Below, in pieces: positions 58,052 to 61,189 of a stretch of 64,000 nt of DNA. The DNA lies in contig MPCU01000004.1 of the NCBI GenBank assembly GCA_001874305.1, positions 124,001 through 188,000 on the forward strand. Direction: 5' to 3'. This stretch comes from Bacteriovorax sp. MedPE-SWde (GTDB lineage: Bacteria > Bdellovibrionota > Bacteriovoracia > Bacteriovoracales > Bacteriovoracaceae). The translations under genes and the position numbers were made by a program. How positions within the stretch are numbered: the first letter of the stretch is position 1; each line of letters starts with the position of its first letter. The notes under the pieces were generated by a model. It did not search any database. It saw nothing but the letters and a program-made list of their open reading frames with translations, and was not told the origin of the DNA.

Positions 58052-58089
58052 AAAGGAAAAAAAGAAAGGTCCCTAAAACTAGGGACCTT
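58052..58089 (-). terminator. Terminator after rplI
   Basis: AAGGTCCCT (58066-58074) and AGGGACCTT (58081-58089) form a perfect 9-bp stem. On the minus strand it is followed by TCTTTTTTTCC. It ends the S6-S18/DUF2232/rplI transcript before dnaB. Confidence 0.88.
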
Positions 58090-58726: not shown

Positions 58727-59755
58727 CTAATTCTCTTTTCTTTTTAAATACTTTCTAAAATTAACCCATAAATCAAATAGGCCAATTATAGCGACAAATC
58801 TGTAAGCCATAAAGATTGTCATTATTGTTAAGATACTTCTTAAGATGCCTTTAATTTTTAAGAACTTTAAAAGATCAAGGTAGATTCCCATTCCCTGAAA
58901 GAAGTAAAAAACTCCTAAACACCAAAGAATATTTCCACCTACGACTTCTAAGCTTTTACCACCTAAATACTCACCACCAATGAATAGACCGAAACCTATT
59001 ACAACAAAGTAGATCATAAAATCAGGGGCCTTAAATCTTACGAGGTCCTTTAATCCATATTTATATTCATGCACTTCTTTCCAAATCGCACTATTTCTTA
59101 AAAGCATAAATAGAGTCATCCATAGAACAAAGTAGATACCTACAAAAATTCCAGCGAATGCCCAGCTATATACAGTTTTAAGTATCTCCTTCGGGTTACT
59201 TAGTAGCTCTTCAAGTGCTCTCGCTTGCTCCCCTCCGGCCTTAATAACTTCTTGAAAGTTTGGCTGTTCCTTCATCTGAGTAATCCCAGTTGAAAGAAGA
59301 GTCTCTATCTGAACAGTTAATGGCTCTGATGAAATAATTTCAGCAAATCCAATAAGAACTGCGATAGCTCCAAGAATATAAAGCCCTCTAGTGATCAATC
59401 CCTTAACAGGATGTTCACCCTTAAGAATAATTGATGAGATGGCAAATGATAGAATCACTGACATCACCAACATTACTCCATAGTGAGAGAGTTGAGATAA
59501 TCCAGGTGAAGACATTGAGGCAACAAAAGTTGCTGCAATAAGAACACCAGATACTGTAAGAGTTTTAGCAATACCGTAAAGAAGAAATGCAACTGCGAGT
59601 GGCAGTGGTGCAAAAATAGACAGCGGTCCAACAACACTTAAAGCAAGTGCAATCACACACAAGAAAACTAGCTTTCCGTAACTCAAACGACCTAAGATCG
59701 CTTCCTTCGAAGGGCTTGTTGAACTTGAATATGAATCGTTTTCACGTGTCATCAT
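58727..59755 (-). CDS. DUF2232/YybS-like membrane protein
   Basis: The 342-residue polytopic protein has about eight hydrophobic helices and matches the DUF2232 (YybS-like) position, which lies between rpsR and rplI in many bacteria. N-terminal FLLYGIAKTLTVSGVLIAATF and C-terminal FYFFQGMGIYLDLLKFLK segments are family-like. AAGG lies 6 nt before the ATG. The function of the family is unknown. Confidence 0.82.
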   Translation of the reverse strand: MMTRENDSYSSSTSPSKEAILGRLSYGKLVFLCVIALALSVVGPLSIFAPLPLAVAFLLYGIAKTLTVSGVLIAATFVASMSSPGLSQLSHYGVMLVMSVILSFAISSIILKGEHPVKGLITRGLYILGAIAVLIGFAEIISSEPLTVQIETLLSTGITQMKEQPNFQEVIKAGGEQARALEELLSNPKEILKTVYSWAFAGIFVGIYFVLWMTLFMLLRNSAIWKEVHEYKYGLKDLVRFKAPDFMIYFVVIGFGLFIGGEYLGGKSLEVVGGNILWCLGVFYFFQGMGIYLDLLKFLKIKGILRSILTIMTIFMAYRFVAIIGLFDLWVNFRKYLKRKEN

Positions 59756-59780: not shown

Positions 59781-60398
59781 TTACTCTGCAAATCTTCCAG
59801 CTAAGTGTGAAACTAGACCAATATTTCTAGCTCTCTTAATAGCTGTTTCAGCAAATCTATGGTGCTTTCTAGAAATTCCAGAAACACGTGCTGGTGAAAT
59901 CTTACCAAACTCATTGATTAGCCAGTTGAAAGTCTTTGGATCTTTCCAATCTGCACTAACTTGGTTTGCTTTGAACCAACAAGATTTTCTCTTTGCAAAC
60001 TTTCTCTTATCTTTGTCAGCACCTCTGTCTAGATCATCAGTTTGTGATCCAGTGTGAGCTTTAGAATAAGGAGTTCTGTAACCTTTTAGGATAGTTTCAG
60101 CTTCTGCATCAACATCCGTAAGCTTAATCGTAAGACTCTTGTGGACCATTTCATTAATTTTGAAAAGTCTCGCAAGCTCTGTGTTAGCTTCGTTGTTTGC
60201 TCTGTAAATAAAGTAGATGTAATGACCTGTTCTAGAACCATTTTTCGCAATCTGCGCAAATGTTTTCTTTCCCCAGTCATCAGTGAGAAGAACTTCTCCG
60301 TCAAAATCTTTAGAAACCTTGGCAACCATATCTTTTAAAGATGTAAGTTGCTCTTCAGTAGCTTCCGGTCTGGCTACAAGTGCCAATTCGTAAATCAT
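59781..60398 (-). CDS. Fused ribosomal proteins bS6 and bS18
   Basis: One 205-residue frame encodes both proteins. Residues 1-95 are bS6 (MIYELALVARPEATEEQL, TGHYIYFIYRANNE), residues 96-131 a hydrophilic linker, and 132-205 bS18 (KRKSCWFKANQ, then EFGKISPARVSGISRKHH and AIKRARNIGLVSHLAG). No ATG, GTG or TTG in frame lies near the S18 start, so separate translation is unlikely. S6 and S18 are neighbours in the 30S platform and bind as a heterodimer, which makes the fusion plausible. AGGAGG precedes the ATG. Usually these are rpsF and rpsR. Confidence 0.92.
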   Translation of the reverse strand: MIYELALVARPEATEEQLTSLKDMVAKVSKDFDGEVLLTDDWGKKTFAQIAKNGSRTGHYIYFIYRANNEANTELARLFKINEMVHKSLTIKLTDVDAEAETILKGYRTPYSKAHTGSQTDDLDRGADKDKRKFAKRKSCWFKANQVSADWKDPKTFNWLINEFGKISPARVSGISRKHHRFAETAIKRARNIGLVSHLAGRFAE

Positions 60399-60428
60399 AC
60401 AAACCTCCTGAACAATTTATATTAATTG

Positions 60429-60453
60429 GCCCCAAATCTCTGTAATTTAGGGC
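60429..60453 (-). promoter_or_regulatory. Leader hairpin upstream of S6-S18
   Basis: On the minus strand GCCCTAAAT and ATTTGGGGC form a 9-bp stem with one wobble and a 7-nt loop, 31 nt upstream of the S6-S18 start. Known S6:S18 leaders lie in this position and mediate autoregulation, but I could not confirm the characteristic bulge. The rest of the 172-bp gap has no clear promoter. Confidence 0.4.
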
Positions 60454-60571
60454 GAGTCATCTGTGTTTAAATGTGTGCAGAATTTAACAAGAAGAAGCCC
60501 TTAAGTAAAGGACATTTGAGCATTTTTCACGTAAATATTTAATGTATTCCAAGGCTTGTAAGTAGTTGAAA

Positions 60572-61189
60572 TTATGCGACAACCCACTCGGATAAAATCT
60601 TAACTTTGTCGTTGATATCATCAAGCTCCAAAATTGCCTGCTTGAGCCCAGGATTATCAACTACAAATTCACAAATAGCGGCCACCAACAAAACAGGGTC
60701 GGCCAAAGACCCAATAACTTCCTCAAACTGATTATGATCAGTGAAGTAGGTTTTTCCCCAGTTTCTAAACTCTAGTTCCAATTGTCGTAAAGTTATAAGA
60801 TTTTCAGGAAGAACTGTTTCAAACTCAATAATCTCTTGGCCCACAGCTATATTATAATTTGTAGCAGATTGGGCCAAATGGACAATACTGATTTTAAACA
60901 TAGGCTCTAGTACAATGAGCATCTCAGGGCCGCTTGGGTTTTGCTGTAATAACGATGGTACACCACAACCAGCAATACGCTTAACAAATGGAAGAGTCTC
61001 GTGCTCAACACGAATTGTCCCCTCTTCCTCTTCACCTAGTGCGTGGCAGAGTGCTACAGGAATTTGCTCCTCAATTGCTCGATGAATCATATCAACATAG
61101 CGAGGTTCAAAAATATTTAAAGGTTTTCTTAGGACTGGATGATAGACCATGCGTGGGAGCGGGAATAGGAATACTTTAGTAAGATTCAT
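60572..61189 (-). CDS. Lon N-terminal (substrate-binding) domain protein
   Basis: The 205-residue protein matches the LON substrate-binding domain: KVFLFPLPRMVYHPVLRKPLNIFEPRY and EPMFKISIV. It lacks the AAA+ and protease parts of Lon. Stand-alone LON-N proteins are common and may be chaperones or adaptor-like; the substrate is unknown. It lies between S6-S18 and a small secreted gene, on the same strand. Confidence 0.9.
   Translation of the reverse strand: MNLTKVFLFPLPRMVYHPVLRKPLNIFEPRYVDMIHRAIEEQIPVALCHALGEEEEGTIRVEHETLPFVKRIAGCGVPSLLQQNPSGPEMLIVLEPMFKISIVHLAQSATNYNIAVGQEIIEFETVLPENLITLRQLELEFRNWGKTYFTDHNQFEEVIGSLADPVLLVAAICEFVVDNPGLKQAILELDDINDKVKILSEWVVA

Follow-up and report, generated by a model that had tools for sequence, protein, structure and literature searches.

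The ribosomal proteins S6 and S18 are encoded in E. coli by the operon rpsF-priB-rpsR-rplI, as two cistrons with their own starts and stops, and the two proteins associate as a heterodimer first and bind rRNA afterwards (PMC4647458). It is the S6:S18 complex, and neither protein alone, that acts as the active repressor of rpsF via the RpsF leader, and the S18 residues K60 and R63 contact C719/C720 of the rRNA as well as this leader, with S6 Tyr48 and S18 Tyr23 named as positions of the S6:S18 interface (PMC4647458). The locus described here, which lies in the window (the whole stretch of 64,000 nucleotides that was analysed), has S6 and S18 in the E. coli order, with rplI after them, but joins them into one polypeptide.

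Fused genes as such are common. A bacterial ribosomal protein joined to another protein is also found in the signalling protein/L9 fusion of NCBIfam NF011110 (PRK14538), although the partner there is non-ribosomal, whereas S6 and S18 are neighbours in the 30S subunit. What sets the present case apart is that two partners within one ribosomal subunit are fused across a clade, the fusion being the sole source of both. The first-pass annotation pointed to no earlier description of this fusion, and our searches agree with it in that no described S6-S18 fusion was found in the open-access papers searched, which are not the whole literature. It is unusual for two core proteins of one subunit to be permanently fused, with no other source of either; the fusion amounts to a covalent form, made by nature, of an assembly intermediate that has otherwise been studied only as a binding equilibrium. 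Whether the order of assembly needs separate S6 and S18 can be asked with it directly, and likewise whether zinc-dependent ribosome remodelling and S6:S18 autoregulation need them. The reading that we favour, and regard as probable, is that the fused protein sits in the 30S platform as a tethered S6:S18 heterodimer and uses a leader RNA to repress its own translation, with the fusion probably having a single origin that went together with the loss of the S18 zinc site.

The fused gene and its surroundings

The fused bS6-bS18 coding sequence occupies positions 59781..60398 on the minus strand as one open frame of 205 codons (205 aa), with an ATG start and a perfect AGGAGG upstream. These are exactly the coordinates at which S6, a linker and S18 had been placed in a single frame from the letters alone, and both domains are detected by profiles. 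The S6 domain (aa 3-92, 60123..60392, minus strand) matches Pfam PF01250 with an E-value of 3.6e-17 and 62.8 bits against a gathering threshold of 27, and scores 40.2 bits with NCBIfam TIGR00166 (E 3e-10 over the full model), just below the cut-off of 42.9, as expected for a diverged S6 member. It is followed by a hydrophilic linker of about 40 residues (aa 93-132, 60003..60122, minus strand) and by the S18 domain (aa 133-205, 59784..60002, minus strand), which matches Pfam PF01084 over aa 148-195 (E 1.1e-14, 54.7 bits against a gathering threshold of 21) and passes the cut-off of NCBIfam TIGR00165 over aa 134-197 (49.9 bits against 38.75); this domain has lost its zinc ligands and kept the rRNA-contacting Lys and Arg. 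Sequence matches of the fused protein in the PDB are bacterial bS6 and bS18 chains. The AF2 model has a pLDDT above 80 for aa 1-120, and its S6 part fits the S6 chains of 30S structures with Z of 13-16 and an rmsd of 1.5-2 over about 100 residues, which identifies the S6 fold. Confidence is low in the S18 part, where blocks of residues score 50-80, and the model therefore lends no support to docking of S6 and S18 in cis; since the fold search list is filled by the S6 domain, the S18 fold is assigned from the profile matches.

A search of the whole genome (3.76 Mb, 99.7% complete) gives one S6 match and one S18 match, both of which are the fused frame, so that neither a second S6 nor a separate rpsR, the latter named in the first-pass annotation as a finding that would speak against the fusion, was found elsewhere in it. 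The next gene in the probable operon encodes a DUF2232 membrane protein (58727..59755, minus strand, Pfam PF09991), followed by rplI for ribosomal protein L9 (58109..58717, minus strand, Pfam and NCBIfam), a terminator-like hairpin with a T run (58066..58089, minus strand) and dnaB. Upstream of the fused gene (60572-61189, minus strand) lies a gene for a stand-alone LON substrate-binding domain protein (PF02190).

Spread of the fusion and supply of S18

The order consists of one family here, the Bacteriovoracaceae, with 129 genomes in 48 genera, 119 of them with a match. Both domains are in one frame in 111 of these 119 (in one of them, G120, the locus runs into a contig end), and two further loci that are cut by contig ends (G014 and G110) agree with the fusion. 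The remaining 6 genomes are unfused. In five of them (G020, G058, G059, G060 and G064) S6 ends at a stop, and S18 follows as a separate gene that starts at an ATG preceded by AAGGA or GGAG. The sixth, G071 (L124; also L231, Bacteriovoracales bacterium APA_bin_12), has an in-frame TAA in the linker with no ATG, GTG or TTG before the S18 core, while its S18 sequence is of the fused type and the leader is present; the TAA could be a sequencing error, a readthrough site or a very recent split. No fusion was seen in 240 other Bdellovibrionota genomes, which mostly give two separate matches, and of 20 outgroup loci 19 have an S6 stop and then an independently started S18, while no S18 was found in the remaining one. 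Scanning GTDB contigs with the conserved S18 motifs of the family, a design that would miss independent fusions elsewhere with a different S18, yields 80 loci, whose titles nearly all name this clade or, more loosely, Proteobacteria or Bdellovibrionales; they include Bacteriovorax sp. DB6_IX (88% identity), Bacteriovorax sp. BSW11_IV, Halobacteriovorax marinus 36_234_T64 and many Bacteriovoracaceae MAGs. The fusion marks a clade of predatory bacteria. In one genome a second, divergent S6 (37% identity) stands beside the fusion with a weak leader match of 16.5 bits (G074:C102:466-744, L134), which may be bin contamination or a paralogue.

The coding length of the fused gene is a multiple of 3 in all 111 fused genomes, and the gap between the S6 and S18 domains is mostly 32-48 residues across the family. 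Over 20 close genome pairs, pN/pS is 0.18 for S6, 0.15 for the linker and 0.07 for S18, and the linker is thus under purifying selection at the protein level. An artefact of assembly or sequencing, by which a stop or start was lost at the junction, is exceedingly improbable, and nothing was found in its favour: the same fusion is present in 111 independently assembled genomes, isolates included, and selection acts on the linker. The stop or frameshift at the junction that could have overturned the first-pass annotation is not there, and the junction recurs in 110 other genomes, cultured isolates among them. At its two ends the linker consists of the S6 tail (K.Y..P) and the S18 N-terminal segment (DKDRR..), both of which unfused relatives have too, and the fusion therefore resembles two neighbouring genes joined in frame.

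The same features of the linker bear on the possibility that the fusion is a polyprotein precursor from which a protease, cutting in the flexible linker, releases separate S6 and S18 for the ribosome. The hydrophilic character of the linker and its variability in the middle part and in length would suit such a precursor, and ubiquitin-ribosomal protein fusions of eukaryotes undergo cleavage of this kind. We nevertheless consider processing unlikely, as the middle of the linker has no invariant motif, the conserved ends are those already found in unfused relatives, and pN/pS is no higher in the linker than in the S6 domain.

The linker in the window contains no in-frame ATG, GTG or TTG, which bears out the earlier observation that the junction has no start codon, and the same is true of 39 of the 111 fused genomes when the window's is included. 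S18 must in the window's genome come from the fusion, either intact or cleaved. The first-pass statement that S18 cannot easily be made alone is in this way upheld for internal initiation in the window's genome and in 38 others; proteolytic cleavage of the fusion could still release it. Additional production of S18 alone by initiation inside the linker has in its favour that the other 72 fused genomes do have an in-frame ATG, GTG or TTG near the junction, and that the Shine-Dalgarno sequences of the linker starts are slightly stronger than those of S6-internal starts (p 0.01). As a general explanation it seems highly improbable, given the 39 genomes that lack a linker start, the lack of conservation of start positions over the family, and Shine-Dalgarno energies far below those of true starts: the median anti-Shine-Dalgarno energy is −2.2 kcal/mol for linker starts and −9.8 kcal/mol for true rpsF starts, three quarters of which reach −9.3 kcal/mol, a strength that no linker start attains. 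Genus g4 (L066-L077) has a recurrent in-frame ATG with GAAGG upstream, about 7 codons before the S18 core. It is the one genus with such a candidate internal start, so that internal initiation may occur in some genomes.

We infer that the fused product stays intact in ribosomes. It would fold as a pre-tethered S6:S18 heterodimer, which would then bind the 30S platform as one 1:1 unit.

Zinc site, interface residues and origin of the fusion

The zinc ligands CxxC...CxxH are found in no fused S18, which places these proteins outside the zinc-ribbon (C+) S18 group, and are kept in 16 of 19 outgroups and in each of the five unfused family members whose S18 has a start codon of its own. The S18 of E. 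coli also lacks the ligands, which means that zinc loss does not need fusion. At the S18 positions that correspond to K60 and R63 of E. coli, the residues are invariant (112/112), consistent with roles both in the 30S platform and in leader binding. At the S6:S18 interface, Tyr48 of S6 is replaced by Gln in 113 of 114 fused proteins and Tyr23 of S18 by Trp in 112 of 112, with both replacements present in 5/5 unfused family members and in 0/19 outgroups. The unfused Bacteriovoracaceae (genera g6, g21, g22 and g26) therefore share these two changes with the fused proteins, and differ from them in having separate genes, an S18 with its own AGGA or GGAG and ATG, and retained zinc ligands. Judged from this pattern, Tyr48 to Gln and Tyr23 to Trp mark the whole family and preceded the fusion.

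The tree built from S6 and S18 joins all fused members, together with G071, in one clade with an SH-aLRT of 83 and leaves the unfused lineages at the base, a signal that partly reflects the zinc residues themselves. The RpoB tree draws the unfused members inside the family, although forcing all fused members together costs only 1.13 lnL and is not rejected (p-AU 0.466). A secondary splitting of the fused gene in the unfused members, which the RpoB tree alone had suggested, was set aside in view of this p-AU value, their basal position in the S6 and S18 tree and their ancestral zinc ligands; that they are early-branching lineages is favoured, not proven. The fused clade in the one tree and the lack of rejection in the other make a single fusion event the simplest reading, and the fusion probably arose once, inside the Bacteriovoracaceae. 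Adjacent rpsF and rpsR genes would then have been joined in frame within this family, along with the loss of the S18 zinc site.

Leader RNA upstream of the fused gene

Upstream of the fused genes we recognised by eye a common pattern of ACUCGCUC-stem-loop-stem-GGGC, followed by an A/U-rich stretch, UCC and AGGAGG. In the window the conserved leader (model R1) covers 60396..60460 on the minus strand and ends in the start codon, with the hairpin GCCCUAAA..UUUGGGGC at 60429..60453 (minus strand) and the Shine-Dalgarno AGGAGG at 60404..60409 (minus strand), whose GAG can pair with a CUC just 5' of the hairpin. The stem varies freely with its pairing kept: pairs 3-8 are standard in 96.5% of cells, against 55.8% (maximum 62.9%) in a control with swapped 3' arms, and stems as good occur in 0.1% of shuffles, figures to be read with the caveat that the stems were picked by score and that the swap and shuffle controls offset this only partly. 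In an alignment of 22 leaders, pairing holds in 92.6% of cells, with a covariation score of 0.443 compared with 0.163 for shuffled alignments and at most 0.145 for slid partners. On the window's genome R1 gives 42.8 bits at the leader, itself one of the 22 training sequences, and 17.6 bits at the next match. Matches lie at or next to the start codon in all 60 other fused loci searched, some of them weak, and are below E 0.001 in 56 of the 60, a few being training sequences or their near relatives. R1 also scores 27 bits in G071 and 21.7 bits in the unfused G064, and has no match at E <0.01 in G058-G060 and the outgroups, and none in E. coli.

This leader resembles RpsF_leader (RF02893) in having a hairpin directly before rpsF, a 3' single-stranded stretch whose CC lies beside the Shine-Dalgarno, and an outer pairing that could mask the Shine-Dalgarno, and differs from it in that the family leader has no Rfam match and R1 no match in E. 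coli. RF02893 itself, as a candidate regulator, was rejected, since it does not match the window even with the limit set at E<=10 (cut-off 37 bits); it is absent from 20 family loci, 20 outgroup loci and 369 genomes of the phylum, and the E. coli leader was found at 110 bits as a control. The leader RNA that accompanies the fusion is thus absent from Rfam, and we infer by analogy that it corresponds in function to the RpsF leader and has diverged from it; without an RF02893 match, binding of the leader by the fused protein is likewise proposed by analogy. Free fused protein would bind the hairpin leader and block initiation, thereby regulating its own synthesis, and the outer CUC:GAG pairing would mask the Shine-Dalgarno. 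A changed stoichiometry or autoregulation, as guessed in the first-pass annotation, is plausible, and the conserved leader would fit the autoregulation. We are more tentative about a bolder proposal, namely that the permanent tether replaces the stabilising role of the lost zinc site while the protein represses itself through a new class of rpsF leader, which is possible and somewhat doubtful as a whole.

Autoregulation of bS21 in Bacteroidia involves an unusually strong Shine-Dalgarno sequence (PMC9976891). The Shine-Dalgarno of the fused gene is strong (−9.8 kcal/mol), and a parallel with bS21 was dropped because two other genes in the window have stronger ones. Several outgroup Bdellovibrionota (L135-L154), also without an Rfam match, carry a CCUUGCUC...GGGCUU hairpin before rpsF, which is perhaps the ancestral form of the leader.
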